From: Sphaerisporangium siamense
GTDB lineage: Bacteria; Actinomycetota; Actinomycetes; Streptosporangiales; Streptosporangiaceae
DNA: 64,000 nt
Direction: 5' to 3'
Assembly (NCBI RefSeq): GCF_014205275.1
Contig: NZ_JACHND010000001.1
Location: forward strand, 7,378,001 to 7,442,000
Part shown: in pieces, positions 3,786 through 18,906 of the stretch
Position numbering within the stretch: position 1 is the stretch's first letter
Layout: every line of letters starts with the position of its first letter
The notes under the pieces: model-generated
The model's database searches: none
Told to the model about the DNA's origin: nothing
What the model saw: the letters and a program-made list of their open reading frames with translations, nothing else
Made by a program: the position numbers and the translations under genes

Positions 3786-4637
3786 ATGGGAAGGCGGCGC
3801 GGCGGCCTGGCGGCGCTCGTGCTGTGGGCCCTGCTGTGCCTGGGAGCCTCCGCCCCGGCCCTGGACGGCGACCCCGCGGGCGACATGAAGGCCGTCTACT
3901 GCCTGAGCCGGCCGCACCGCGCCGACCTCATCGAGGCCGCCGTCGTCCTCAAGGCGGGCGCCCGCGACACCGCCACCGGCCCCGAGGCACTGAAGACGCC
4001 GGGCAAGGTCTACGCGACGCCGGAGCTGTGGCGCGAGGGCGACTCCGAGGCGTTCGACCGGGTGTGCTCGGCCCTGGTCGCCACCGTCCCGCAGCTCACC
4101 GCCCCCGCCGAGCCCAGCCCGCTCGCGGACATGGCCGCCGTCGTCCTCCCGCTGATCCTGGGCGCGGCGCTCACCATCGCCGGCCAGCGCGCCGACGCCG
4201 CCCTCGCCCGCCGCGCGCAGGACCACGACGGGGCGCGCGGCGCGGCGGCCCGGTTCCAGCGCGCCGCCCAGGACTACCTCACCGCCTGGGTGGACGACGA
4301 GACCGCCCCGAGCGCCCAGGCGTCGGAGGCGGCGCTCGACCTGCTCGCCGCGGTGGCGCGCCTCGGCGGCGGCGCGCGCCGTACGGCCGCCGCCCGCGTC
4401 ACCGCCGCGCTGCCGGTCCCCTACGACCTGAACGTGATCCACGACGGCGAGCCCGGCCACGAGCGGCGCAGAACGCTCGCCGCCGGGGAGCTCGCCCGCC
4501 TGGCCGCGATCGTCCACGCCACGGAGGTGCTCATTCGTACGCGCGCGTTCTGGCCCGCCCCGGCCTCCGATCCCGCACCTCCGCCTCCGGGGGGCGGCCC
4601 CGCGACGGCCCCGGGCACGGGAGGAGGCGCCGCGTGA
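3786..4637 (+). CDS. Two-pass membrane protein, first gene of the NTPase operon
   Basis: I do not recognise this 283-residue protein. Residues 6-24 are a signal peptide or first membrane helix. Residues 28-112 would be outside the cell and include Cys39 and Cys94. Residues 116-134 (MAAVVLPLILGAALTIAG) form a clear second helix. Residues 135-255 are Ala/Arg-rich and helical, probably a cytoplasmic coiled region, and the tail is Pro/Gly-rich. The ATG follows GGGGGGTGGC. Its stop overlaps the start of the next gene (GTGA at 4634-4637), so the two products are probably made in fixed ratio. The arrangement suggests a membrane partner or effector for the two downstream NTPases. The function is unknown and this role is inference. 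Confidence 0.75.
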   Translation: MGRRRGGLAALVLWALLCLGASAPALDGDPAGDMKAVYCLSRPHRADLIEAAVVLKAGARDTATGPEALKTPGKVYATPELWREGDSEAFDRVCSALVATVPQLTAPAEPSPLADMAAVVLPLILGAALTIAGQRADAALARRAQDHDGARGAAARFQRAAQDYLTAWVDDETAPSAQASEAALDLLAAVARLGGGARRTAAARVTAALPVPYDLNVIHDGEPGHERRRTLAAGELARLAAIVHATEVLIRTRAFWPAPASDPAPPPPGGGPATAPGTGGGAA

Positions 4638-5731
4638 TCGAGAACAGCTTCGGCATACCGGAACTGCGCGAGCAGCTCCTCGGCGACGGCCTGGAGCTGG
4701 AGAACGTCACCGACGTCCCGCTGTGCCCGTGGCGCATCCGCGGCCACCATCTGCTGCGCGTCGAGGTGGACGACACCGAGGAGGCGTTCCAGAGCTTCCG
4801 CCGCCGGCTTCACGACGTGCGCGACCTGCTGGAGGACGGGCGCCTGGTGGTGGTCAACGGCATCGAGGGCAGCGGCAAGACCACGCTCATCCACCGCTGC
4901 GTGGACGACCTGCAGAGCAGGATCGTCCAGGCCCTCGGCCACATCCCCGACGACACGCCCACCGGGGAGCCCGGCGACTGGGCGCTCCGCTCCCATGAGG
5001 ACCGGATCTGCATCGCGGACCTCAGCGACAAGGCGTCCAAGGTCGCCTACGTCAACGGGCAGATCTGCCCGATCTCCGTCATCAACCGGCGGATCTTCGA
5101 GCGGGTGGTGGACGCCCTGGCCCGGCGGTTCGGCCCGTCCGAGAAGCTCAGAGCGCTGGCGGCCAACGAGCGGGACTCGCCGGAGATCCTCTACGAGAAG
5201 CTCAGCGAGGAGTTCCTGCAGGACCGGAAATTCTTCCTGCTGGTGATCCTTCCGTCCATCAAGCTCGGCCCGAGGCTCGCGCACCTGGAGTTCCTGAGGT
5301 CCTACGTCAACTTCACCGATCCGCGCCTGGTGTTCTTCGGAGAGACGACGGAACGCGATATCGCGGGCGAGCTGGGACCGTTCGATTACCGCAAGAAGGA
5401 CGTCCTGGTGAACGTTTCGGTGGGCGAACTCAAGGACATCGACCTTGAAAAGTTCGTCAAGACCCGGACCAGCCGCAAGGGCCTCGCGAAGTCGCACGTC
5501 ATCATAGCGCCGCGGACGTTGTCCGATGCCAGGCCCGATATCGACTATAAGACCGTGCGCGTGCTGCAGAACTGGCTGTTCGAGGTCGGCGAGATCGCCC
5601 GCGGGGCCTCGCGCGAGGAGATCCTGCCGGACGACTTCACGGTCTACCAGGAACGGCTGCTCGGCACGCTCGTCCGCCACAGGGTCGAGCCTCGATCCGG
5701 AGGGGATGGCCAGGGTGAACCCCAAGGATGA
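4634..5731 (+). CDS. P-loop NTPase (AAA/STAND-like), 365 residues
   Basis: This is the second gene of the operon. It starts at a GTG overlapping the upstream stop and preceded by GGGAGGAGGCGCC. Residues 76-84 are a textbook Walker A (GIEGSGKTT) after a beta strand (RLVVVN). A hydrophobic strand near 200-206 (FFLLVIL) occupies the Walker B position but ends in Leu-Pro instead of Asp/Glu, and RLVFFGETTE resembles a sensor-1 strand. Hydrolysis may therefore be weak or regulated. About 280 residues follow the P-loop without recognised effector motifs. The first 70 residues resemble no family I know. The base composition of 5230-5560 is less G+C-rich than its neighbours, a possible sign of transfer. 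The function is unknown; coupling to the genes on both sides indicates a complex. Confidence 0.75.
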   Translation: MIENSFGIPELREQLLGDGLELENVTDVPLCPWRIRGHHLLRVEVDDTEEAFQSFRRRLHDVRDLLEDGRLVVVNGIEGSGKTTLIHRCVDDLQSRIVQALGHIPDDTPTGEPGDWALRSHEDRICIADLSDKASKVAYVNGQICPISVINRRIFERVVDALARRFGPSEKLRALAANERDSPEILYEKLSEEFLQDRKFFLLVILPSIKLGPRLAHLEFLRSYVNFTDPRLVFFGETTERDIAGELGPFDYRKKDVLVNVSVGELKDIDLEKFVKTRTSRKGLAKSHVIIAPRTLSDARPDIDYKTVRVLQNWLFEVGEIARGASREEILPDDFTVYQERLLGTLVRHRVEPRSGGDGQGEPQG

Positions 5732-8171
5732 CAGGGTCGATCCCCGGGACAACCCGTTCCCTTCCGTCCCCATCGCCCGGCTGACGGGCAGCTCCGACCT
5801 GCTCCCCGTCGGCCTCCAGGGCGGCCGGGTGCCCATCACCGTGGAGACCGGCGCCATCGCGGCCATGCGCGCCCAGCTCGACGCCTGGCGACGCCAGAGG
5901 CTGAACGTGCCGTCCGTGGGCCGCGCCCTGGCCGTGGTCGGCGACCTCGGCACCGGCAAGAGCCACATCGCGCGCGACCTCGCCCACACCGTGATGACCC
6001 GGCCCGGTCCCGCCGCGCCCGTGCTGTGGCTGATCGACGAGCCGGTCTGGGACTTCGGCCAGATCTACCGCGAGCGGCTGGTCACCGACCTCAAGGACCA
6101 GAAGAGCGTCTTCTACGAGGTCCTGCTGGACTACTACTCCGACGTGACCGCCGAGAGCCTCGCCGGCTCCCGGTCCCTGGACTCGATCGCCGCCGGGCTC
6201 AAGGGCCGCGACCTGGACCCGCAGGCGGTCATCGACGCGCTCAACCTGTCGGAGGCCGCGATCCGGGCCGACCTCGAACGGCGGCTCCAGGGCCTCACCG
6301 AGCACGGCAAGTTCGCCTCCGCGCTGGCCCTGCTCCAGATCCCGGGGTTCCAGAACGCCGTCTGGGAGTGGTTCATGGGCCATCCCCCCAGCGACATCCT
6401 CAGGGAACGCGGCATCGACTCCCCCATCGACGACGTGAGCTCGGTCTTCGAGGCGCTGGCCGTGTTCGCCTTCCTGTACGGGCGGGCGGGACGGCGGTTC
6501 ATCCTCGTCGTCGACATGCTGGAGAAGGTCCTGGAGTGGCCCATCGACCGGCGGACCGCGTTCGTCCAGGCCTTCGAGAAGCTCGTCAACGTGTACGTCA
6601 GCGTGGGCGGCCTGCTGGTCTTCTGCGTGGTCCCCGACGCGCTCGGCATGCTCGGCGAGGGTGTGCAGGAGCGCATCCGGCCGATCCGCACCACGGCCCT
6701 GACCGACGAGGAGACCGTCGAGCTGACCCGCCGGTACCTGGAACGCGCCCGCGGCACCAGGGGGGCCGCGCTCGACGCGCCCGGCCCGGAGCCGGACGTT
6801 CCCGCCGCGCCTCCGCCGGTACCGGGCGCGCCGGAGGAGGCCCCCGCCGACCTGGCGCCCTTCACCGTCGGCTCGCTGCGCTACATCCGCTCGCTGGCCG
6901 GCGGCGTCCCGCGCCGGGTGCTCAAGATCTGCCATCACGCCTGGGCGCAGGCGGCGCGGCGCTCCCCCGGCGACGGGCCGTCCGTCGTGGACGAGGTCAT
7001 CGTGCGCGACGCGGTCCGCGCCACCTTCGAGACCGCCACGCTGGAACAGGTGCGCGCGTCCATCCGCAGCGTGCTGGAACTGGAGTCGCGGCGCTTCGAG
7101 CCGAGCCCGGTCCGGTTCAGCGCCCGCCCGGCGGGCGAGGCGGGCAAGGTCGACTTCTGGATACCCGTGGGACGGCAGGGCGCGGCGATCGCCGTGCTCA
7201 CCACGGACTCGGTCATGCAGTCGAGCCAGGTGGAGCGGCTGGAGCGCATCGTGTGGGCGGCGCGCAAGGACACGGGGGCGGCCCCGTGTCAGCCGCTGGT
7301 GGTGGTCAACGGCTACCTGTCCCCCGCGCTGCGCCAGCGGATCGCCGAGCTCACCGACGCCCAGCCCGTCGTCTACAGCGACCGCGACTTCACGCTCACG
7401 CTGCGCGAGGCCGTGCGGGAGCTGGCGCGCCGCCTGGAGGCGGCCGACCGGGACGGCGTGCTGGACGTCATCCGCAGCCGCGTGGAGGACATCTCCTACC
7501 AGCAGACCACCGTCCTGGACTACCTGCAGCGGATCGACGGCCGGGTGGAGCAGGCCGACGCGGCGTCCGCGCGGCGGCTCGGCGAGCTGCTCAGGTCACT
7601 GCCCGCGGAGCCGGAGCCGCGGGAACGGCGCCGCGAGCATGCCCACCCTCGGGCCGCACGGCACCGGATGCCCGAGGACGTCGAGCGGCACTTCGACCGG
7701 GCCTTCGACGCGATCGGGCTGATGAGCGGCGTCCCGGCCACGTTCAGGGACGTGTTCACCGTGGACGAGACGGCGGCGGCCGACGTGCGCCCGCGGCGGC
7801 TCGGCTTCACCATGGACGAGTTCCAGGCCGTCGGCGTGGCGGTGCTGCTGGAGAAGCTGCTGGAGGCGTTCCGCGACAGCGTGGCCGCCTGGCTGGAGCA
7901 GGCGGACGCCGCGCGGTCACTGCCCGGGGAGACGGTGCCGACGACGGCCCAGGAGCGGCGGCTGCGCACCATCTGCCGGAGTTACGAGATCACCGCGGAG
8001 ATGCTGCCGGTGTTCCGGCTGGAGAGCATGGCGGCCTTCGGGCCGTTCACCGAGGGGCCCGAGCCGATCGAGCACGCCTCGCGCACGTTCCGCAGGGCCG
8101 AGGCGGAGGACGCGCTGTCCCGGCTCGGCGAGCGCGTGCTGGCGGCGGCCATGGCCAGCGTGCGGACCTAG
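5706..8171 (+). CDS. Large AAA-type P-loop NTPase, 821 residues
   Basis: This is the third gene of the operon. The ATG at 5706 lies 26 bp inside the previous gene and follows GATCCGGAGGGG. Walker A is GDLGTGKSH (residues 79-87) and Walker B is FILVVDMLE (about 264-272), followed by a long helical segment. A Pro/Ala-rich linker (about 355-385) leads to a winged-helix-like region, then a stretch with VDFWIPVGRQGAAIAVLTTD (about 480-500) that looks like a Rossmann or nuclease-like core. The C-terminal 170 residues (HFDRAFDAIGLM onward) are alpha-helical. There are no membrane segments. I cannot assign a family; it resembles AAA/STAND NTPases of conflict systems. It converges on an antiporter gene 49 bp away. 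Confidence 0.75.
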   Translation: MARVNPKDDRVDPRDNPFPSVPIARLTGSSDLLPVGLQGGRVPITVETGAIAAMRAQLDAWRRQRLNVPSVGRALAVVGDLGTGKSHIARDLAHTVMTRPGPAAPVLWLIDEPVWDFGQIYRERLVTDLKDQKSVFYEVLLDYYSDVTAESLAGSRSLDSIAAGLKGRDLDPQAVIDALNLSEAAIRADLERRLQGLTEHGKFASALALLQIPGFQNAVWEWFMGHPPSDILRERGIDSPIDDVSSVFEALAVFAFLYGRAGRRFILVVDMLEKVLEWPIDRRTAFVQAFEKLVNVYVSVGGLLVFCVVPDALGMLGEGVQERIRPIRTTALTDEETVELTRRYLERARGTRGAALDAPGPEPDVPAAPPPVPGAPEEAPADLAPFTVGSLRYIRSLAGGVPRRVLKICHHAWAQAARRSPGDGPSVVDEVIVRDAVRATFETATLEQVRASIRSVLELESRRFEPSPVRFSARPAGEAGKVDFWIPVGRQGAAIAVLTTDSVMQSSQVERLERIVWAARKDTGAAPCQPLVVVNGYLSPALRQRIAELTDAQPVVYSDRDFTLTLREAVRELARRLEAADRDGVLDVIRSRVEDISYQQTTVLDYLQRIDGRVEQADAASARRLGELLRSLPAEPEPRERRREHAHPRAARHRMPEDVERHFDRAFDAIGLMSGVPATFRDVFTVDETAAADVRPRRLGFTMDEFQAVGVAVLLEKLLEAFRDSVAAWLEQADAARSLPGETVPTTAQERRLRTICRSYEITAEMLPVFRLESMAAFGPFTEGPEPIEHASRTFRRAEAEDALSRLGERVLAAAMASVRT

Positions 8172-8220: not shown

Positions 8221-9441
8221 TCACCGCTTGCGCGCGTGCGAGCCCATGGCGAGGACGTGGCGGACGGCCAGCGGGCGGAACGCCGGGAACGGCGCGGGGC
8301 TCGGCACACGGACACCGGTGCGGACCGGGACGGGCACGGGAACCGGGCGGGTGATCCTGTCCCACACGCCGTTCGTGACGATGTGCAGGACGTTGACGGT
8401 CAGGATGGCCGGGGCGATCACCCGCACGGCCGCGGGCAGATGCGGCTGCAGGGCCAGGGCCAGGATGATCGCGGTGATGCCGTTCTGCTGGCCGAGGGCC
8501 AGGCGGACCCGGTCGGCCGCGCCGAAGCGGCGGCCGATGAGCAGCCCGGCGACCACCTGCGCCCCGAAGGCGGCGAGCCCGAGGATCAGCCCGAGCCGGA
8601 GGTCCACGCCGCCGATGAGCAGCATGCCGAGCACGAACGCGGCGAGGTAGAAGGCGACGGAGGTGACGCGGCCGACGAGCGCCTCGACGCCGCGGGGGCG
8701 GTAGAACAGGCCCGCGAGGGCGACGCCGAGCATCAGGAACTGCCAGGCGGCGAGGGCGAGCAGCCCGGCGAGCACGATCATGGCGACCAGCGGGAAGGCG
8801 GGATGCTCCTTGAGCGGCCGGCGCGCCGGGCGGCGCGCGGCGAGCCACCAGGCGGCCCCGGCCGCCGCGGCGAACGCGGCGTTGGCCGCGAGGCCCGTGC
8901 CGTACGACGTCAGGCCGCCCATGGAGCCGCCCGCGGCCGGGCTCAGGGTGGTCGTGACGAGGTAGACGGTGAGCAGGGCCGTGACGGGGTCGTCGAAGGA
9001 GGCCCAGGCGAGCAGGAGCGAGCGGGCGCGGCCGGACATCTTCGAGCGGCCGATCATCGCGCTCACCGACAGCGGGTCGATCTGGGCCACGGCGACGCCG
9101 AGGATCATGGCCGTGGTACTGCCGGAGGCCAGGTACATGACCACGGCGATCAGCGCCGCCTTCAGCGCCACGCCGACGGTGACCGCGGCGACGACGGTGG
9201 GGACGTCCTGCACGGCGTCGCGGGTGATGCCCGAGGCGCTGCCGTACAGGCCCACGGCCAGCAGCGCGTTGACGCCCCACAGGTACCACGGCGAGGTGAC
9301 GGCCAGGCCGTGGCCGCCGGGGCCGGTGAGACCGGCGGCGGCGAGCCCGAGCGCGGTCACGAGGAGTACGGCCACGAGCCGTCCGGAGGATCGCTCGACG
9401 AAAGCGGTGAGCACCTTCACCACGGTCCTCCACATCGACAC
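8221..9441 (-). CDS. Cation/proton antiporter-like membrane protein
   Basis: This 406-residue protein has about 11-12 hydrophobic segments. The central motif AQIDPLSVSAM, followed by SFDDPVTALL, is typical of the CPA1/NhaP sodium/hydrogen exchanger family, in which paired Asp residues in the membrane bind the ion. A C-terminal repeat element, FGQxNGITA-like (LALGQQNGITAIIL), also fits. It would exchange Na+ or K+ for H+ across the cytoplasmic membrane. The start is a GTG at 9441 with AGGG five bases upstream; an ATG six bases later is the alternative. It is transcribed alone, facing an A+T-rich 179-bp gap. Confidence 0.8.
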   Translation of the reverse strand: MSMWRTVVKVLTAFVERSSGRLVAVLLVTALGLAAAGLTGPGGHGLAVTSPWYLWGVNALLAVGLYGSASGITRDAVQDVPTVVAAVTVGVALKAALIAVVMYLASGSTTAMILGVAVAQIDPLSVSAMIGRSKMSGRARSLLLAWASFDDPVTALLTVYLVTTTLSPAAGGSMGGLTSYGTGLAANAAFAAAAGAAWWLAARRPARRPLKEHPAFPLVAMIVLAGLLALAAWQFLMLGVALAGLFYRPRGVEALVGRVTSVAFYLAAFVLGMLLIGGVDLRLGLILGLAAFGAQVVAGLLIGRRFGAADRVRLALGQQNGITAIILALALQPHLPAAVRVIAPAILTVNVLHIVTNGVWDRITRPVPVPVPVRTGVRVPSPAPFPAFRPLAVRHVLAMGSHARKR

Positions 9442-9620: not shown

Positions 9621-10625
9621 TCACCCGGCGACCGCGCCCAGCGCCTCGGCCAGCCGGCGCAGCCGCAGCTCGGCCTGATCCACCTTGTCCTGCAGCAGGG
9701 TGACGCCGAACAGGAAGTCCCCGAGGCCGGCGCCCAGCCAGTGCACGTAGAGCGCGCCCTCCTCGACGTCCAGCACGAGCCGCGTGATCGGCGAGTCCCC
9801 GGCGCGGCGCAGGGTCTGCCGCAGCCGCGCGACGTCGGTGCGCAGCCGCCCGGCGATCTCGTGGTAGAGGTCCCTGCGCCTGCGCACCCCGACGTTCCTG
9901 AACAGGGGGGCGAGCGCGGGGTCGTCGAGCACGTCGCCGGTGTGGACCGGCCACCAGCCGCGGTGGAGGGCCGCGTAGTTGAGGTCGCCGGCGTTGACGG
10001 CGTGCGCCCACAGGTCGAACAGCTTGGCCTGGGGCGCCTCCGCCATGCCGGGCTCGCCCCGGACGTAGGGGACGCTCGGCGCGTCGAGCTCGGGCAGCTC
10101 GGACACCGGAACGCCGCCGGGGTTCTGCCCGCCGAGGCGCAGGTCCACCACCCGGGTCTCGGTGACCAGGGCGTTGACCGCCCAGTCCATGGCGGACACG
10201 CGGTCCGCGGCGAGCGTGGCGCCGACGAGGTACTCCCCCGCGCGGACGCGCCCGCAGTGGAACGCGGCGTCCTCGGTCTGCACCACCGTGCGCATGAGCA
10301 CGCCGGAGTCCAGCGCCTCCAGCGCGGCGCCGAAATCCTCCACGCGGCTGATGAGCTGGCGGGTGACGTTGCGGTGATTCTCCCGCACCCCGTGGACCGG
10401 TTCGGAAAAGCGTTCCGCGTATTCGCCGGACTCGAAGGCGTCGACCGAGAAGTCGAACACGCCGCTTCCGTAATGCGCGACATAATCCAGGCCGGGACCC
10501 GCGGCGACGGCGTCCCTGCACCGGTCGATCAGGTTCGCGTACGCCTGCCCCACGTGCGGGTCGCGGGTCACGGTCACGCCGGCGTCGCGTGCCGCGCGCG
10601 TCCCTTCGCCGAGAACCTCTGCCAT
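9621..10625 (-). CDS. Uncharacterised protein downstream of fxsT
   Basis: The protein has 334 residues from the ATG at 10625, which follows GGAAGGGGACGACG; a longer frame to 10679 would overlap the fxsT stop and lacks a site. I do not recognise it. It is soluble, without signal peptide or membrane helix, and is acidic in its first half (YVAHYGSGVFDFSVDAFESG). It has Trp-rich elements (GWWPVHTGDV, DLWAHAVNAGD) and a C-terminal helical pair. A segment VLDVEEGALYVHWLGAGLG looks like a beta-hairpin. It lies 50 bp behind fxsT on the same strand, so it is probably co-transcribed and may act in the same pathway. That link is inference. Confidence 0.7.
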   Translation of the reverse strand: MAEVLGEGTRAARDAGVTVTRDPHVGQAYANLIDRCRDAVAAGPGLDYVAHYGSGVFDFSVDAFESGEYAERFSEPVHGVRENHRNVTRQLISRVEDFGAALEALDSGVLMRTVVQTEDAAFHCGRVRAGEYLVGATLAADRVSAMDWAVNALVTETRVVDLRLGGQNPGGVPVSELPELDAPSVPYVRGEPGMAEAPQAKLFDLWAHAVNAGDLNYAALHRGWWPVHTGDVLDDPALAPLFRNVGVRRRRDLYHEIAGRLRTDVARLRQTLRRAGDSPITRLVLDVEEGALYVHWLGAGLGDFLFGVTLLQDKVDQAELRLRRLAEALGAVAG

Positions 10626-10675
10626 CGTCGTCCCCTTCCCGTCGGTCCAGCGGACCGGGCTTCCCCGCCGTCGCC

Positions 10676-13600
10676 TCACAGCCCCGGTATCTCAAGGTCG
10701 ATGTCCGCGCGCACGGCGCGGCCGGTCAGCCCCGCGCCCGCCAGCCTGCTCCTAGTGTCGGAGAGGTTCTTCTCCACCAGCACGGCGTTCGGGTGGCCGG
10801 GCACGCCCGCGTCGCGGAAGCCGTCCAGCGCCGCCTGCTCCAGGCCCGCCGCGCGGGCGTGCTCGCCGCGCAGCACCAGCGTGTTGGCGTAGGCCACGCT
10901 CGCGGCGATCAACCAGGGGTGGTGCGGGACCAGCCAGCGGCGCAGCCGCCCGAGGGCCTTGGCCCCGATCTCGGCCGCCCCCACCAGGTCGCCGGAGTTG
11001 CGCAGGTACGCCGCCAGGCCCACCTCGCACACCCCCGCGTACGGGTGGTCGGGGCCGAGCGTGTCGCGCAGCCCGGCCAGGCACGCCTCGGACTCGTAGG
11101 CCGCCGCCTGGTGCTTGCCCAGGGCGTCCAGGTCCGCCGCGAGGCTGGCCCGGCAGATGAGGGTGACCAGGTCGCGGTCGCCCTGGTGGGCGCGAAGGTC
11201 GGCCAGGATGCGCTCGTCGCGCTCGCGGGCGTTCTCCGGCCTGCCGAGCCTGCGCTCGGTGATGGCGAGGCCGCTCTCGGCGCGCAGCACCTCCAGGCTG
11301 GGGCCGCGGCGCCCGGCGCGGCCGAGCGTGCCCCGGTGCGGCAGCACGCGTTTGAGCAGGGTGAACGAGTCGTCCAGCCGGCCGAGGTCGCGATGGTAGC
11401 GCGCCATCGTGATCGCGGTGCGCACGGCCGCGGGGTCGCCCTCGCCGGCCATGCGCACGCGCAGGTCGTAGCGCTCTTCCGCCAGCTCCAGCGCGCGCCG
11501 CGCGTCGCCGACCAGGGCCTCGGAGATCGCCAGGTTGTGCATGGCGTTGCCGGTCAGCGGGTGGTGGGCGCCGAGCAGCTCGCGCAGTCCGCGAAGGACG
11601 TCGCGCTCCATGTCGCGGGCCTCCTCGAACTCGCCCATGGCGCGCAGCGCCGTCGCGTGGGCGCCCGCGGTGAGCAGCGTGCGCGGGTGGTTGACGCCGA
11701 GCACCACCCGCTGGGCCCGCAGCGCCTGGAAGCTGTACCGCAGGTGGTCGTGGTGGTCGCCGCGGCTCCGCGAGACCTCGGCCAGCAGGTCGAGCAGCCG
11801 CAGCCGGGGCAGGGACTCGTCGTCCCAGGCGGCGAGCACCCGCAGGCCGATCTCTTTCACCCGGTCGACGGCGAGCTTGTCGTCGGCGCGCAGGACGAAC
11901 GAGAGCTGGCGCAGGACCCACCGCCGCACCTCGGGCCGCGTGTCGTCCCACGCCTGGACGGCCTCGAAGTGGCGGTCCAGCTCGGCGTGGAGCGCCGGGC
12001 CCGACTCGTCCGCGGGATCGGACGGGGAGAGGGCGGCCAGGGCGCCGCGCAGGTCGCGCAGCAGGCCGCGCACCCCGTCCTCGCCCATCCTCTCGCGGAC
12101 GAGGGCGCGCACCAGGCCGTGCGCGCGGACCGGCTGGTCCGGCCGGCCGAGATCGACCTGGACCAGGCCGTACCGGCCGAGGCTGCGCAGCATGACGTCG
12201 ACCATGAGGGGATCGTTCAGCTTGTCGGCGTCGGTGAGCAGCCCGAGCATCGGGGCCGAGCGGAGCACCCGCAGGGCGACGCCGCGCGGCGACAGGCAGG
12301 CGCACACCCCGAGCAGGCGCAGGGCGGCGTCGCCGCCGAGGTTGTCCCGGCGCAGCGCCCGCCCGCCGATGTCGCCGGGCAGGGTCTCCAGGGCGAGGTC
12401 CAGCATGACGCGGGAGGCGGGGGTGGTCTGGCCTCGGCCCTGGCACTCCCCGAGGACGCGGTCGTACTCGTCGGCGAAGCGCGCGACGGCGTGGCTGAGC
12501 GCGTCGCGGAAGCGGACGCTGTCCTCGCGCACGCGCGAGCGCATGGTGGAGATCCAGGCGCCCGCCACGTCCAGGACCAGGGGGACGCCGCCGACGCGCT
12601 CCACGACGGGCTCGGCCTGCTCCTCCGCGAGGTCGGGCACGTGGCGGGCGAGGAGCGCCAGGGCCTCGGCGCCGGCGAGCGGCCCGATCGCCAGCCCCGG
12701 CCTGCGGGAGTCGAGCGGGGCGGCGCGCGTGGTCACGACGACGTCGCAGCGGTCACGGGTGAGGGGGATGTGGGGCGCGAGATCGTCCTCGCCGACGACG
12801 CCGTCGTAGAGGAGCAGCCAGCTTCCCGACTCCTCGGAGCCGAGGTGGCGCAGCACGGCCTCGGCCGCGTCGGCGCCGGTGGGGATGCCGAGGGCGACGG
12901 CGAGGTCGGCCAGGCCCTGGCGGACGTCGGCGGCGCTCTCGCCCGGGATCCACCACACCAGGTCGTAGGCCCCGGCGAAGCGGTGGCCGTACTCCAGGGC
13001 GACCTCGGACTTGCCGATGCCCGGGGGGCCGTGCAGCGTGCACACGCGCTGGTCCTCGCGCGCCGCGGCGAGGGCGTCGCGCAGCGCGTCGATCTCGCGG
13101 TCGCGGCCGACGAAGCGCGGGTCGCGCGGCGGGAGGCCGACGGTCGCCGGCGTGCCGGGGAACCGGGCGCCGCCGGGGGTGTCGGCGCGCGGGCCTGTGA
13201 CGCGCAGCTCGCGCCGCAGCGTGCGCAGGGCCTCGGCCTCGCCGCGCGCGGGCAGTTCGAGCCGCGGCAGGTGGGTGAGGCCCTCGGGGACGCGCCGGCC
13301 GTCGACGAGCACCAGGCGGATGCCGGACTCCGGGACGCGGCGCAGCCACGCGACCTGCTCGGGCGGCAGGCCGCCGGGGGAGACCACGAGGATCAGGGCG
13401 TCGCCGCCGAGGGCCTGCCCGTCGATCGCGCCGGAGGCCAGGACCCGGACGCGGACCCCGAGGCGTTCGAGCTGGGCGTGCGCCCATTCGGCCCAGGCCC
13501 GGTCGCGGGGCGAGTACACCAGCGTCACCCGCCGCAGCGCGCCCGCCCGGCCGCCGGTCAGCTCCGCGGCCAGCCGTTCGTAGGCGACGCGCAGCCCGTC

Positions 13601-14302
13601 GGCCTTGCCGGGCGGCTCGTTGAGCGTCGCGAGCGTGTCGGAGAAGGAGTACACCGGCGCGTAGGGAATCTCGACGTAGGCCGGCTCGCGGCCCGCGCCG
13701 AGCTCGGCGAAGCGGCGCGCGACCACGTTCCTGGCCTGTTCCAGGGGGGCGGCGACGCTGGTCTCGGCCTTGATGCCGAGCGCCAGCACCGCGACGGGGC
13801 GCCCCGCGACGAGCTGCACGCGGCGGGCGACGTCGGCGCAGCTCTCGATGCTGCGGATGTTCAGCGGGAAGCAGGCGACGACGACGTCGGCGAGCCCGGA
13901 GAACGTCTCGGGGGCCGGGCCGTACCCCTCGCTGGGGGCGTCGATGAGCACATAGTCGAACGCGGCGGCGGCCTCGCGGATCGTCCGGGCCTGGTCCTCC
14001 CCCCCGGCGGAGAGGTCGAGCTGGAGCAGGCCCATGCGGCCGGAGAGGCTCACCCCGTCGTCGTCGATGGAGACGGCCCACGGGGCGCCCGGCGGATCGG
14101 CGGCGGGCGGGGTGAGGTAGGGGCGCAGATAGTGGTCGGCGCGGATGCGCGAGCCGTGGGCGTCGGCGACGAGGACGTTCAGGCCGTTTCCCGCGAGGAT
14201 CAGCGCCACGTTGACGATCGCCGTGGTGCGGCCGATATTGTCGCTGGTCGAGCAGAACAGGATGACGCGGCCGGCGCCGGGGGTGTCGGCGACCTCGTTC
14301 AT
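10676..14302 (-). CDS. fxsT: FxSxx-COOH system tetratricopeptide repeat protein (FxsT-like)
   Basis: The protein has 1208 residues. The domain order is as follows. A ParA/MinD-like N-terminus has a degenerate P-loop (SDNIGRTT, 20-27). A TIR-like domain comes next at about 260-400 (VTLVYSPRDRAWAEWAHAQL; ALILVVSPGG). An NB-ARC/STAND NTPase follows with Walker A GPPGIGKS near 425-432 and VGRDREIDAL just before it. The last 450 residues are TPR-like repeats (NHPRTL, HHPLTGNAMHNLAI, DHPYAG), each spaced about 42 residues. This architecture is that of FxsT proteins accompanying FxSxx-COOH peptides and their radical SAM maturase. The family's function is not settled; a signalling or immunity role is inferred from the TIR/STAND/TPR design. 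The precursor gene lies immediately upstream on the same strand. Confidence 0.88.
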   Translation of the reverse strand: MNEVADTPGAGRVILFCSTSDNIGRTTAIVNVALILAGNGLNVLVADAHGSRIRADHYLRPYLTPPAADPPGAPWAVSIDDDGVSLSGRMGLLQLDLSAGGEDQARTIREAAAAFDYVLIDAPSEGYGPAPETFSGLADVVVACFPLNIRSIESCADVARRVQLVAGRPVAVLALGIKAETSVAAPLEQARNVVARRFAELGAGREPAYVEIPYAPVYSFSDTLATLNEPPGKADGLRVAYERLAAELTGGRAGALRRVTLVYSPRDRAWAEWAHAQLERLGVRVRVLASGAIDGQALGGDALILVVSPGGLPPEQVAWLRRVPESGIRLVLVDGRRVPEGLTHLPRLELPARGEAEALRTLRRELRVTGPRADTPGGARFPGTPATVGLPPRDPRFVGRDREIDALRDALAAAREDQRVCTLHGPPGIGKSEVALEYGHRFAGAYDLVWWIPGESAADVRQGLADLAVALGIPTGADAAEAVLRHLGSEESGSWLLLYDGVVGEDDLAPHIPLTRDRCDVVVTTRAAPLDSRRPGLAIGPLAGAEALALLARHVPDLAEEQAEPVVERVGGVPLVLDVAGAWISTMRSRVREDSVRFRDALSHAVARFADEYDRVLGECQGRGQTTPASRVMLDLALETLPGDIGGRALRRDNLGGDAALRLLGVCACLSPRGVALRVLRSAPMLGLLTDADKLNDPLMVDVMLRSLGRYGLVQVDLGRPDQPVRAHGLVRALVRERMGEDGVRGLLRDLRGALAALSPSDPADESGPALHAELDRHFEAVQAWDDTRPEVRRWVLRQLSFVLRADDKLAVDRVKEIGLRVLAAWDDESLPRLRLLDLLAEVSRSRGDHHDHLRYSFQALRAQRVVLGVNHPRTLLTAGAHATALRAMGEFEEARDMERDVLRGLRELLGAHHPLTGNAMHNLAISEALVGDARRALELAEERYDLRVRMAGEGDPAAVRTAITMARYHRDLGRLDDSFTLLKRVLPHRGTLGRAGRRGPSLEVLRAESGLAITERRLGRPENARERDERILADLRAHQGDRDLVTLICRASLAADLDALGKHQAAAYESEACLAGLRDTLGPDHPYAGVCEVGLAAYLRNSGDLVGAAEIGAKALGRLRRWLVPHHPWLIAASVAYANTLVLRGEHARAAGLEQAALDGFRDAGVPGHPNAVLVEKNLSDTRSRLAGAGLTGRAVRADIDLEIPGL

Positions 14303-14431
14303 GACCCACCACTTCCGCCCGCCGTTCCCTGGGAATGCGGAAACGGCCGCAGCTTTGTCGAGCGCCAGATGGGGGATTAAGTATAGGCACCGGGCGCATG
14401 CGACGGGCGCCGTGGGATGCCGCGTTCCGCT

Positions 14432-14671
14432 TCACTGCGCGGGGGGCGGATCGGCCTCTCGTTCGTAATCGGCGGGATGGGTTCTCTCGTAATCAGTGGA
14501 AAACGCGGCCACCCCTCGAATCGCCTCGGCGCGGATCCTTCGCAAGGCAAATATCAGGGCAGATTCGGACATTTCTGCCACAATGTCGAGGGGGACACCG
14601 GAAAGGTCGACCAGGTCGGAGTCCAGGCCGCCATCGAAGGCGTCCCCGTCGCCGTCGCTTTCCCGCCTCAT
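14432..14671 (-). CDS. fxsA: Candidate FxSxx-type RiPP precursor with extended C-terminus (FxsA-like)
   Basis: This 79-residue peptide has the FxsA leader signature DLVDLSGVPLDIVAEM (residues 19-34) and a helical SALIFALRRIRAEA segment. It then reaches VAAF at 54-57, where FxSxx precursors normally end in Phe-x-Ser-x-x. Here the text is FSTDY (57-61), with Thr at the Ser position, and translation continues 18 residues further to a Pro-rich end. The extension carries two imperfect DYER repeats (60-63 and 68-71). The core could be FST, or the aromatic/acidic repeats could be additional modification sites. It is translated toward fxsT and lies opposite the radical SAM gene. The start ATG has AGGGG eight bases upstream and overlaps the stop of a tiny upstream frame. 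Confidence 0.72.
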   Translation of the reverse strand: MRRESDGDGDAFDGGLDSDLVDLSGVPLDIVAEMSESALIFALRRIRAEAIRGVAAFSTDYERTHPADYEREADPPPAQ

Positions 14672-14703
14672 TCGAGGCGCCCCTGCGGGTATGAGCCGGA
14701 CAT
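14668..14703 (-). other. Possible 11-codon leader ORF coupled to fxsA
   Basis: An ATG at 14703 with AGGAG seven bases upstream opens an 11-codon frame (MSGSYPQGRLE). Its TGA (14670-14668) overlaps the fxsA ATG as ATGA. The ribosome-binding site here is better than that of fxsA, so translation may be coupled. It could also be coincidence; the peptide has no known relatives. Confidence 0.35.
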
Positions 14704-14850
14704 GCGGGACTCCTGCCGCTGGTCGGGATCACTGCCAGGTGGATTCATAAGGGGGACCACCGCGGTTCTCGTACGGCCCGACGGGCTTCACCATCATAGC
14801 CGGGTAATCTTCCCACGGCCCCGGCCGCCGACGCGGCCCGATCATCGGAC

Positions 14851-14881
14851 TTGACGGCGGATCGGCACCGTGAACTACTCT
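14851..14881 (+). promoter_or_regulatory. Putative promoter of the radical SAM gene
   Basis: TTGACG (14851-14856) and TACTCT (14876-14881) are separated by 19 bp, slightly longer than ideal. The site lies 33 bp before the GTG at 14914, in the divergent gap to fxsA. Confidence 0.35.
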
Positions 14882-14913
14882 GAAGTGCCGGAGCTGATAT
14901 CCATGGGGCATAT

Positions 14914-16200
14914 GTGACTGTCAAGCCAGGTGCGGAAGGAAGGGCCGGCGACTCGGGCGACGCGATAAAGCCAGACCATATCAGGGCTTCCGAATGGCCC
15001 TATACCTTGGACGTCGGCGCGCGGATCGCGAAAGGGTGGACACCCCGGCCGTTCACGAGTTTCATCCTCAAGCTGCACAGCCGGTGCGATCTCGCCTGCG
15101 GTTACTGCTACATGTACCAGGCCGCCGACCAGAGCTGGCGCCACCGGCCCCGCGCGATGCCGAGGTCCACCGTCGCCCACACCGCCGCCCGGATCGCCGA
15201 GCACGCCGAGGCGCACGATCTGGCCGAGGTCGGCATCGTCCTGCACGGCGGCGAGCCCCTGCTCGCCGGGCCGGACCTCATCGCCAACACCGTCCGCGCC
15301 CTCCGCCGGGCCCTCGGCCCGCGCAGGCGGGCCCGGTTCGCCGTCCAGACCAACGGCATGCTGCTCGACGAGCGCTACCTGCGCCTGTTCGCCGAGCTCG
15401 GCGTCACCGTCGGCGTCAGCCTCGACGGCGACGCGGAGGCCCACGACCGCCACCGCCGCCGCGCCGACGGGCGAGGCAGCCACGCCCGGGTCGCGGCGGC
15501 GCTCGAACTCCTCCGCCAGGGCCCCTACCGGCACCTGTACGGCGGCCTGCTGTGCACCGTGGACCCGCGCAACGACCCGATCCGCGTCTACGAGGGGTTG
15601 CTGCGCTTCGACCCGCCCGCGATCGACTTCCTGCTCCCCCACGGCAACTGGACCTCCCCGCCGCCCGGCCGCTCCCCCGGCGACGCGCGCACGCCGTACG
15701 CCGACTGGCTGATCGCCGTCTTCGACCGCTGGTACGCCGCCGAGACCCGGCCCACCGGCGTCCGCCGCTTCGAAGAGATCATGCACCTCCTGCTCGGCGG
15801 CGCCGCGCCGGCGGAGAGCCTCGGCCTGGAGCCGATGAGCTGCGTGATCGTCGAGACCGACGGCGCCATCGAGCAGTCCGACGTCCTGAAGACCGCCTAC
15901 CCGGGCGCCCCGGGCACCGGGCTGAACGTGGCGAGCGCGTCCTTCGACGACGCCCTGCTGCTCGCGCCCATCGTCGCCCGCCAGATCGGCCCGGACGCGC
16001 TCGCGCCCGCCTGCCGGTCGTGCGAGCTGCTCCGCGTGTGCGGCGGCGGCCACTACGCCGACCGCTACCGCGCCGGGTCGGGGTTCGCCAACCCCAGCGT
16101 CTACTGCCCCGACTTGTACAAGCTGATCACCCACATCCGCCGGCGGCTCGCCGCCGACGTGGCCCGGCTGCGCCGCTCGCTGCGCCCCGTGGCCTCGTGA
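14914..16200 (+). CDS. fxsB: FxsB-like radical SAM/SPASM peptide maturase (rSAM part only)
   Basis: The protein has 428 residues. WPYTLDV then FTSFILKLHSRCDLACGYCYMY (split as FILKLHSRC and DLACGYC) carries the SAM-binding [4Fe-4S] CxxxCxxC (Cys58, 62, 65). The radical SAM GGEP motif (112-115) and QTNG (145-148) follow. C-terminal Cys310, Cys367, Cys370, Cys376 and Cys398 fit a SPASM domain with auxiliary clusters. It matches FxsB, which joins an aromatic side chain to a nearby residue of its RiPP precursor to make a cyclophane. Known FxsB proteins usually continue into an HExxH domain. Here the frame stops and that domain is a separate overlapping gene. The start is a GTG; an upstream ATG in another frame is rejected. 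Confidence 0.88.
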   Translation: MTVKPGAEGRAGDSGDAIKPDHIRASEWPYTLDVGARIAKGWTPRPFTSFILKLHSRCDLACGYCYMYQAADQSWRHRPRAMPRSTVAHTAARIAEHAEAHDLAEVGIVLHGGEPLLAGPDLIANTVRALRRALGPRRRARFAVQTNGMLLDERYLRLFAELGVTVGVSLDGDAEAHDRHRRRADGRGSHARVAAALELLRQGPYRHLYGGLLCTVDPRNDPIRVYEGLLRFDPPAIDFLLPHGNWTSPPPGRSPGDARTPYADWLIAVFDRWYAAETRPTGVRRFEEIMHLLLGGAAPAESLGLEPMSCVIVETDGAIEQSDVLKTAYPGAPGTGLNVASASFDDALLLAPIVARQIGPDALAPACRSCELLRVCGGGHYADRYRAGSGFANPSVYCPDLYKLITHIRRRLAADVARLRRSLRPVAS

Positions 16201-17528
16201 GCCCGCGTCGGCATTCGCTGCCGGCCGGCCTGTTCGACAGTCTCGCCGCCGGCGGCGGCGGCGCCGCGGCGGTGCGCGCGCTTGCGGCGGCCGAGCACAG
16301 CAAGCGGCTGGTCCTGCTGCGCGCCGTCGTCGACACGGCCGCGGCGGCCGGTCATCCCGGGGCGCGCCGGGCCGCCGACGCCTACGCGCTGCTGGCCCGG
16401 CTCCAGCGCGCGGTCCCCGCCGCCGTCCGCGACGCGGTGACCTACCCGGCCGTCGGGTTCTGGGCCCTGCGCGTGCTGCGCGGGCTCATGCTCGGCGACC
16501 CCCGGGCCGATCCGGCCCAGCTCGCCGCGGTGGCCGCCGTCGCCGCCGTGCGGGGCCGGGTGCCGCTGCGGGTGGGCGTGCCCGTGACGCGGGGCCGGGT
16601 CACGCTGCCGTCGCTGGGCGCCGCCCTGCTGCCCGGCACGCCGGAGGCGTGGGCGGCCGTGCGGCCCGACGGGCGGGGCGGCGCCGTGGTCACCGTGGCC
16701 GGGCGCGCGGTCACCGTGCCGCGCGACCCGCACACCGAGGCCGGCGCCTGGCTCGGCCTGCGCCGCCTGAGCGCCGGAACCGCCGACGCCGCGGTCACGT
16801 TCCTCGTGGACGACACCGACCCGCTGCGCTTCCCGCCGCACCCGCGGGTGGGCCCGCGTCTGTCCCCCGGCGAGGCCGCCGCGTGGCAGACGATGATCGG
16901 CCGGGGCTGGGACCTGCTCGGGCGGGCACATCGCGGGGTGGCCGGCGAGGTGGCGGCGGGGCTGTGGGTGCTCGTCCCGCTCCAGGCCCCGCCGGACGGC
17001 ACCGCGAGCGCGACGTCGGCGGAGGCGTTCGGCTGCGTCGCCATGTCCCGCCCGTCCCGCCCGCTGGACGTGGCCCGGGCCCTGGCGCACGAGGTGCAGC
17101 ACGCCAAGCTCGCCGCGCTCGGCACGATGTTCCCGCTGATCGCCGAACCCGGCGGCGAGAGGTTCTACGCCCCCTGGCGGGAGGACCCCCGGCCCGCCGA
17201 GGGCCTGCTGCAGGGGGCCTACGCCCACCTCGGCATCGCGCGGTTCCTGCGCAGGCAGTGGGAGGGCGAGAGCGACCCGGCGGCCCGCCTGGACGCGCAG
17301 ACCGAGTTCGCCCGCTGGCGGGAGGCGACCTGGGACGTCGCGCACGTGCTGCTCGGCGGCGGCCTGCTCACCGGGCTCGGCGAGCGGTTCGTCACCGGCA
17401 TGGTGAGAACGCTCGCCGAGCTGCGGGCCGAGGACGTGCCCCGCGAGGCGGTCGGCCGGGCCGGGCGCCTCGCCGAGGAGCACCTGACCCGGTGGCTGAC
17501 CCGCGCCGGGACGGGCGTCAGTCGTTGA
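16197..17528 (+). CDS. HExxH domain protein, split-off partner of FxsB
   Basis: This 443-residue protein starts at a GTG sharing GTGA with the fxsB stop. It begins [16 protein letters not shown], the usual opening of the HExxH domain that follows rSAM in FxsB fusions. The first half is Ala-rich helical. Residues 298-302 are HEVQH, inside [13 protein letters not shown], with downstream acidic and Tyr residues ([22 protein letters not shown]) typical of this family. Related HExxH domains have been described as 2-oxoglutarate-dependent peptide beta-hydroxylases, so a second modification of the precursor is possible. This is inference. It overlaps the convergent glyS gene by 11 bp. Confidence 0.8.
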
Positions 17529-18906
17529 GGTGCTGGCGCAGGTAGGACTCGACCTGGTCGAGCGCGATGCGCTTCTGCGCCATGGAGTCGCGCTCGCGGA
17601 TCGTCACGGCGTTGTCCTCCAGGGTGTCGAAGTCGACCGTGACGCAGAACGGCGTGCCGATCTCGTCCTGGCGGCGGTAGCGGCGGCCGATCGCCCCGGC
17701 GTCGTCGAACTCGACGTTCCAGCGGCGGCGCAGCAGGGTGGCCAGGTCGCGCGCCTTGGGCGACAGGTCGGAGTTGCGCGACAGCGGCAGGACGGCCGCC
17801 TTGACCGGCGCGAGGCGGTGGTCGAGGCGCATGACCGTGCGCTGCTCCATGACGCCCTTGGCGTTCGGGGCCTCGTCCACCGTGTAGGCGTCGATCAGGA
17901 AGGTGAGCGTGCAGCGGTCGACGCCGGCGGCCGGCTCGATGACGTACGGCACGTAGCGCTCGCCGGAGTCCTGCTCGAAGAACGACAGGTCGGTGCCGGA
18001 GGCGGCGGCGTGGGTGCTGAGGTCGAAGTCGGTGCGGTTGGCGACGCCCTCCAGCTCACCCCACTCCGAGCCGGTGAAGTTGAAGCGGTACTCGATGTCG
18101 ACGGTGCGCTTGGAGTAGTGGGACAGCTTGTCCTTCGGGTGCTCGTACAGCCTCAGGTTCTCGGGGGTGATGCCGAGGTCGGTGTACCAGCGGAAGCGCT
18201 CGTCGATCCAGTACTGGTGCCACTCCTCGTCGCTGCCGGGCTTGACGAAGAACTCCATCTCCATCTGCTCGAACTCGCGGGTGCGGAAGATGAAGTTGCC
18301 CGGGGTGATCTCGTTGCGGAACGACTTGCCGATCTGGCCGATGCCGAACGGGATCTTCTTGCGCGAGGACTGCTGGACGTTGAGGTAGTTGATGAAGATG
18401 CCCTGCGCGGTCTCGGGGCGCAGGTAGGCCAGGCCGGACTCGTCCTCGACCGCGCCGAGGTAGGTCTTCAGCAGGCCGTTGAACATGCGGGGGGCGGTGA
18501 AGGCGCCCTTGGTGCCGCAGTTGGGGCAGACCAGGTCGGCCAGGCCGTTCTCGGGGGCCCGGCCGCCGTGCTTCTCGGCGTAGGCCTCTTCGAGGTGGTC
18601 GGCGCGGAAGCGCTTGTGGCAGGACTGGCACTCGGTCAGCGGGTCGACGAACTCCTTGACGTGGCCGCTGGCCTCCCAGACCTCGCGGGCCAGGATGACC
18701 GAGGAGTCCAGGCCGACGATGTCGTCGCGGCCCTGCACCATGGACTTCCACCACTCGCGCTTGACGTTGTTCTTGAGCTCGACGCCGAGCGGGCCGTAGT
18801 CCCAGGACGCGCGCAGACCTCCGTAGATCTCGCTCGACGGGTACACGAGCCCACGCCGTTTGGCGAGGCTGACGATCGTGTCCATGATGTCGGTGCGGCG
18901 GGCCAT
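17518..18906 (-). CDS. glyS: Glycyl-tRNA synthetase, homodimeric type
   Basis: This 462-residue class II aminoacyl-tRNA synthetase charges tRNA-Gly in the cytoplasm. The N-terminus ([20 protein letters not shown]) and [15 protein letters not shown] form the dimer/motif 1 region. A zinc-ribbon insert supplies C-x2-C pairs (ECQSCHK; LVCPNCG). Motif 2 is FRNEITP with [10 protein letters not shown], and the Gly-binding [15 protein letters not shown] and the motif 3 region near [10 protein letters not shown] follow. The C-terminal anticodon-binding domain is present, with SLRQ-type ending shown as SYLRQHLND. Length and order are normal for actinobacterial GlyRS. It appears to be monocistronic. Confidence 0.96.

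Follow-up and report, generated by a model that had tools for sequence, protein, structure and literature searches.

The window analysed here, a stretch of 64,000 nucleotides from the actinomycete Sphaerisporangium siamense (contig NZ_JACHND010000001.1, positions 7,378,001 to 7,442,000), carries a gene cassette of the FxSxx type, putatively for a ribosomally synthesized and post-translationally modified peptide (RiPP). The precursor gene, fxsA, lies divergently from two overlapping genes for the predicted maturation enzymes, the radical SAM protein FxsB and a stand-alone HExxH protein. On its other side are the genes for FxsT, for a protein here called X352 and for a membrane protein, ANTIP, with two AAA-like ATPase genes beyond them (Table 1). 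The precursor does not end in the F-x-S-x-x sequence of its class; it carries a C-terminal extension, which is real and is conserved in four species of one genus.

Table 1. Features of the fxsA cassette in the window (positions counted from the first nucleotide of the window)
Feature	Positions	Strand	Basis and remarks
fxsA-type precursor, 79 residues	14432..14671	-	Conserved leader, about residues 19-55; context; related precursors; sub-cut-off TIGR04268 match
Candidate modified core, F57-Q79 plus stop (the extension)	14432..14503	-	Direct reading; kept in relatives G003 and G008
FxsB, radical SAM/SPASM maturase, 428 residues	14914..16200	+	TIGR04269, 470 bits; ChlB (PDB 9gm3), E 8e-83
Stand-alone aKG-HExxH-type peptide hydroxylase, 443 residues	16197..17528	+	TIGR04267, 171 bits; HEVQH at residues 298-302
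FxsT, FxSxx-system NB-ARC/TPR protein, 1208 residues	10676..14302	-	NF040586, 604 bits (cut-off 300)
X352, 352 residues	9621..10679	-	Predicted Roadblock/LC7 fold; adjoins FxsT in the 16 cassette loci mapped
ANTIP, membrane protein	8221..9441	-	Predicted CPA Na+/H+ antiporter fold; 11 of 16 cassette loci mapped
AAA881, AAA-like ATPase	5526..8171	+	Weak AAA_16 match below cut-off; 15 of 16 cassette loci; start codon uncertain
AAA364, small AAA-like NTPase	4637..5731	+	Weak AAA_22 match below cut-off; 6 of 16 cassette loci; start codon chosen by the author

Behind the leader (DLVDLSGVPLDIVAEM), residues 57-79 of fxsA read directly as FSTDYERTHPADYEREADPPPAQ, and this, not F-x-S-x-x-COOH, is the C-terminus of the peptide. 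F-S-T-D-Y at residues 57-61 is followed by 18 more residues, and the candidate core consists of F57-S-T59, the two DYER units D60-Y-E-R63 and D68-Y-E-R71 and a Pro-rich end. The initial annotation, made from the sequence of the window, had given these coordinates and this reading correctly, and the tail motifs (F-S-T once, Y-E-R twice) do differ from FxSxx-COOH, as it maintained. Compared as DNA, the two DYER units are identical at 11 of 24 nucleotides, and a recent tandem duplication is therefore not shown at this level. Against TIGR04268, the FxSxx-COOH model, fxsA scores 17.8 bits, below the cut-off of 28, with a match limited to leader residues 21-49 (E 0.06 in a search of the whole genome, which gave no match over the cut-off), and sub-cut-off matches to the same model occur in 8 of 14 control genomes. 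Because this model alone is insufficient, the identity of fxsA rests on its position beside FxsT and FxsB and on the related precursors.

Matching precursors were found in 4 of the 11 genomes of the genus that were searched, namely the window's own and those of three relatives, G004, G003 and G008. The check named by the initial annotation, conservation of the extension in relatives, thus came out positive in all three. The G004 peptide is 97% identical to that of the window, retains its start, frame and stop, and ends in FSTDYERTHPVDYEREGDPPPAQ. The G003 precursor ends in LFSNDYIESPPAPS (extension also given as FSNDYIESPPAPS) and the G008 precursor in PISNDYAESPPAL (extension also given as ISNDYAESPPAL). 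Between the window and G004, all eight changed codons of residues 1-56 are synonymous, while residues 57-79 hold two synonymous and two changing codons (A67V and A73G), the latter both outside the DYER units. Since G004 keeps start, frame and stop with eight of eight changed leader codons synonymous, a frameshift or a chance open reading frame (ORF) is unlikely. The initial annotation had named a frameshift that restores FxSxx-stop as a finding that would overturn its reading; such an artefact was rejected, as G004 keeps frame and stop, and F-x-S-x-x-stop is absent from the other two frames of the fxsA 3' region.

G003 and G008 agree at 9 of 11 core positions, a number reached by none of 200000 shuffles, versus 11 of 35 in the leader; the window core agrees with that of G003 at 6 of 11 positions (reached by 16 of 200000 shuffles) and with that of G008 at 5 of 11 (104 of 200000). 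Tyr is the only core aromatic common to all four orthologues, and the window lineage has two DYER units versus one D-Y-x-E in two relatives. A profile built from the four precursors gave matches at E 0.01 in 36 of 341 genomes of the family and in 16 of 394 of the class, some of them in long unrelated ORFs. Further genera carry extensions of other sequence, for example YNTDFSQGSPSPLDET, FQNIHGGRLWHMPSDTGDV and HQSSAAQWE, and the tails of different genera look mutually unrelated.

The initial annotation had also treated the maturase as aberrant, with an FxsB that ends early and an HExxH domain detached from its usual fusion. The two are indeed separate ORFs, the HExxH protein starting at GTG 16197 within a 4-nucleotide GTGA overlap with fxsB; the remainder of that claim does not stand. 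FxsB exceeds the TIGR04269 cut-off of 370 bits over model positions 1-362 of 363 and is therefore full length, with no early end. It contains the radical SAM motif CxxxCxxC, and its four C-terminal SPASM cysteines align with ChlB, which is by sequence comparison its closest solved relative. The HExxH protein is well above the TIGR04267 cut-off of 40 bits and matches PDB 22nu (E 1e-44) and ChlH (8s5f, E 2e-5), the ChlH match spanning only residues 285-375. Its motif is intact, with H298, E299 and H302 invariant in 13 of 13 aligned HExxH proteins. The genome of the window has one FxsB gene and one HExxH gene.

FxsB matches at E 1e-50 or better are present in 241 of the 341 family genomes, and the loci analysed are mainly the closest matches among these 241. 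After removal of duplicates (135 rows reduced to 121 distinct loci), a separate HExxH-motif ORF was found at 88 loci and a fused one at 13; one further locus has a long ORF without the motif, one a separate ORF without it, and 18 no HExxH ORF in the sequence covered. The long ORF just mentioned, of 741 residues at L028, was scored as fused without the motif, yet a separate HExxH ORF adjoins it. The split is the majority arrangement among the relatives analysed, fusion is not usual here, and the counts rule out the split maturase as an unusual trait. Four genomes (L078, L080, L081 and L082) have two divergently oriented FxsB genes, one fused to HExxH and one split. Canonical and extended precursors both occur at split loci, no co-occurrence of extension and split was seen, and their coupling into linked deviations, as first proposed, is not supported.

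The extension is associated instead with a divergent arrangement of fxsA and fxsB and with the wider cassette. Among 46 precursor rows with FxsB, tails reaching more than four residues past the aromatic position are found in 15 of 17 divergent versus 6 of 29 co-directional rows (Fisher p 1e-5). In this count the aromatic position was assigned by eye at 21 loci, a duplicate place (L144) and precursors with no FxsB among the loci taken (L219, L072, L191 and L222) were left out, L221 was counted twice, and L223, which ends in HMVKL, was taken as canonical in length though it is not FxSxx. The tail is likewise associated with X352: 16 extended and 4 canonical precursors occur with it, 6 extended and 22 canonical ones without it (p 9e-5; lists entered by hand, G577 left out). 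In the FxsB tree, the window, G004, G003 and G008 form one clade with a local support of 0.986.

Several known systems allow this cassette to be placed. With the FxSxx-COOH system (TIGR04268/TIGR04269/NF040586) it shares an FxsA-type leader, FxsB, the FxSxx-system TPR protein and an HExxH gene, but its precursor lacks the FxSxx end and scores below the cut-off, fxsA is divergent from fxsB, and Roadblock-fold, antiporter-fold and AAA-like genes are added. ChlB/ChlH (ChlBH) has homologous radical SAM and HExxH domains, fused there and encoded by two separate genes in the window; according to the portion of PMC12636437 that deals with it, the fused enzyme forms cyclophanes and, once a cyclophane is in place, hydroxylates Asp and His on it at the beta position, and the same order would be expected here. 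The part of PMC11002830 on triceptide maturases describes i/i+2 links of Tyr to Arg by YhhB and of Tyr to Asp by YxdB, a precedent for Y-E-R in the window core, which also carries F-S-T. YhhB is the second-best NCBIfam model for the window FxsB, which scores 351 bits against it, below its cut-off of 445, and lies above the cut-off for FxsB. For PflC/PosC, too, the HExxH enzyme that acts on the RiPP precursor has a gene of its own, but in the passages of PMC12636437 that treat them their clusters have an MNIO-nitroreductase, not FxsB, and they hydroxylate Gln and cut the backbone. The stand-alone peptide-processing systems that Kaur et al. 2020 describe from actinobacteria, in the sections of PMC7159879 that bear on them, include a zincin-like gene (taken as the HExxH gene), a small protein of the FxSxx type, accompanied in that type by a radical SAM/SPASM gene, and an AP-ATPase that contains a MinD/ParA-like domain. 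There the zincin-like protein, in contrast to the reading preferred here, is interpreted as a peptidase, and a role in conflict systems, as toxin or as signal, is proposed for such peptides. The main text of that paper contains none of the words antiporter, Roadblock, LC7 and exchanger.

Against this background, the locus is rather likely to be an FxsB/HExxH RiPP cassette in which a genuine C-terminal core, maintained by selection, replaces the FxSxx end of the precursor. Cyclophanes and hydroxylation are its presumed chemistry, and the extended peptide probably represents a functional variant within the known FxsB/HExxH RiPP system. The leader would bring FxsA to FxsB, and this enzyme would close aryl-to-Cbeta cyclophanes between positions i and i+2 of Omega-x-x motifs. 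Tyr61-Glu-Arg63 and Tyr69-Glu-Arg71 are the likeliest sites and Phe57-Ser-Thr59 is a possible one; F-S-T occupies the place of F-x-S in canonical members, and the two Y-E-R units fit i/i+2 rings. The stand-alone HExxH enzyme would then beta-hydroxylate a ring residue or one next to a ring, with Asp as the best guess. The modified product may act with FxsT and the Roadblock-fold and antiporter-fold proteins; like the peptides of related systems, for which this has been proposed, it would probably be a regulated signal or effector. The F-x-T cyclophane, the Tyr/Asp-based crosslink and the beta-hydroxylation of Asp suggested in the initial annotation may each occur in this peptide.

Two loci bear on the division of labour between the enzymes. 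In G008, Ile replaces the core Phe and S-N-D-Y-x-E-S-P-P-A is kept; no HExxH gene is found at its locus (L070 4900-6800 / L232), and two elsewhere in the genome could act in trans. Because G008 keeps Asp-Tyr-x-Glu without the Phe or a locus HExxH, Tyr is suggested as the conserved site. G654 has a precursor of the sequence FTTNQEKEPGGGEAQKE (FTTNQEKEP, without that Tyr), with HExxH and FxsT present; its genome, a single contig, gives no FxsB match. Given these absences of genes and motifs, the maturation steps look separable.

A number of points weigh against this reading or narrow its support. The TIGR04268 score, taken alone, puts fxsA near chance, and the exact D-Y-x-E/R motif is seen in no more than four species, all of the same genus. 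The examples in the relevant part of PMC11002830 do not include Thr as the i+2 partner, and G008 implies that the extended type can do without the core Phe and without a locus HExxH, since it has neither. Relatedness is not taken into account in the Fisher test, the divergent loci fall into about two groups of the FxsB tree, the larger weakly supported, and the divergent rows include the near-duplicates window/G004 and G201/G269. Moreover, the precursors compared came from profiles seeded with window-like sequences, and most FxsB loci first taken showed no precursor in the flanks covered, which makes the sample uneven. Owing to the seeding, the uneven sampling and the grouping in the tree, the independent cases are fewer than the counts.

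An alternative that can be entertained tentatively, and that overlaps the favoured reading, is that FxsB acts on Tyr motifs only (Y-x-E/R), the Phe being incidental, while the stand-alone HExxH enzyme targets the Phe motif or an Asp near it. Tyr as the sole core aromatic in all four orthologues, the lack of both Phe and locus HExxH in G008, and the combination in G654 of HExxH and FTTNQEKEP with no such Tyr and no FxsB match all agree with it, but the argument is based on two single loci, and two joint absences may be coincidence. It seems unlikely that F57-S-T59, as the equivalent of FxS, is the only modified site and the extension a follower that is trimmed or serves for recognition only. 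In 16 of 17 divergent rows the Omega position, as assigned by eye, holds F, Y or H, and the unrelatedness of tails across genera is what a follower would lead one to expect; yet G008 has Ile at this position and keeps its tail motif, the window lineage has two copies of the DY unit, and the tail is better conserved than the leader between G003 and G008. Decay of the locus, with the extension arising from a lost stop codon and the split maturase from a fusion that broke apart, would fit the sub-cut-off precursor but is very improbable, given that G004 keeps frame and stop with only synonymous changes in the leader, that two diverged relatives share the extension, that the split is the common state and that the HExxH residues are invariant.

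X352 has no Pfam or NCBIfam match over a cut-off. Its model (predicted local distance difference test, pLDDT, 87; predicted template modelling score, pTM, 0.87) contains an identical helix-strand order twice, and about 140 of its columns match single Roadblock/LC7 domains in Foldseek, the best being MglB (3t1r, E 3e-4, template modelling score, TM, by target 0.75); both halves are read as likely Roadblock domains. A profile search of PDB sequences returned three weak matches to X352, at E 0.14 and up. ANTIP has no Pfam or NCBIfam match, and the same profile search found nothing; its model (pLDDT 80, pTM 0.79) resembles CPA Na+/H+ antiporters, with PaNhaP as the best match (4cz9, E 1e-5, TM by query 0.55). 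Both assignments are fold-level inferences. FxsT has NB-ARC and TPR domains over their cut-offs and a weak ParA-like N-terminus (KGGVGR; 18.4 bits, below 90). PADLOC gave no match for AAA881, ANTIP, X352, FxsT, HExxH or fxsA; FxsB reached 41 bits against the viperin model pVip, taken as general radical SAM similarity, and AAA364 20.5 bits against mad8, with two other models weaker. Beyond the HExxH gene, the convergent ORF at 17518-18906 presumably encodes glycyl-tRNA synthetase.

The cassette was mapped at 16 loci (window, G004, G003, G008, G007, G019, G201, G269, G122, G134, G128, G005, G079, G038, G654 and G014), of which G654 and G014 have no FxsB beside it. X352 always lies on the side of FxsT away from fxsA; ANTIP, where counted, stands between X352 and AAA881 or in the same place before a contig end, and at G079 and G654 it is found beyond the ATPases. 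At G128, the one locus without AAA881, the contig ends first. In the other three divergent rows (G335, G316 and G076) X352 lies beside an FxsT-like gene a few kilobases from fxsA, and among co-directional rows the scan showed X352 or ANTIP only at L223. AAA881 is not exclusive to the cassette, since weaker AAA881-like matches (57 to 84 bits) occur elsewhere, among other places at L049 and at five FxsB loci for which no precursor is listed. X352 is present in 23 of the 394 genomes sampled across the class, some matches being partial.

X352-ANTIP pairs without FxsT occur at L263-L265. X352, FxsT-like and HExxH genes with no FxsB in the stretch covered are found at L236 (G654, 9693-16327), L251-L254, L256, L267 and L268; of the genomes with such cassettes, G654, G423, G553 and G376 have no FxsB match genome-wide, and G408, G393, G646 and G660 have FxsB elsewhere. 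At L072 (G014, 5097-5195), a 46-bit FxsB match beside a precursor ending in FRNAI is possibly a remnant maturase.

It is tempting, though doubtful at this stage, to regard the divergent loci as a distinct, undescribed peptide-signalling or conflict cassette, in which FxsA would be modified at multiple sites (Tyr-x-Arg and Phe-x-Thr cyclophanes, hydroxy-Asp), FxsT and the tandem-Roadblock protein would couple it to the CPA-type antiporter, and maturation would be modular, with a radical SAM enzyme but no locus HExxH in one relative, HExxH but no FxsB in other lineages, and both in most. TIGR04268 names the peptide class by a fixed FxSxx terminus, and extended members would be missed by this curated model, because the precursors of the window, G003 and G008 score below the cut-off or are not matched at all. 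Together with its relatives, the locus offers ready substrates, with one versus two DY-x-E/R units, with or without the Phe and with or without a locus HExxH, which could show which residues are modified by FxsB and by stand-alone HExxH enzymes. By tying a RiPP to an NB-ARC/TPR regulator and to Roadblock-fold and antiporter-fold proteins, the cassette would also make the role of the peptide testable by gene removal.

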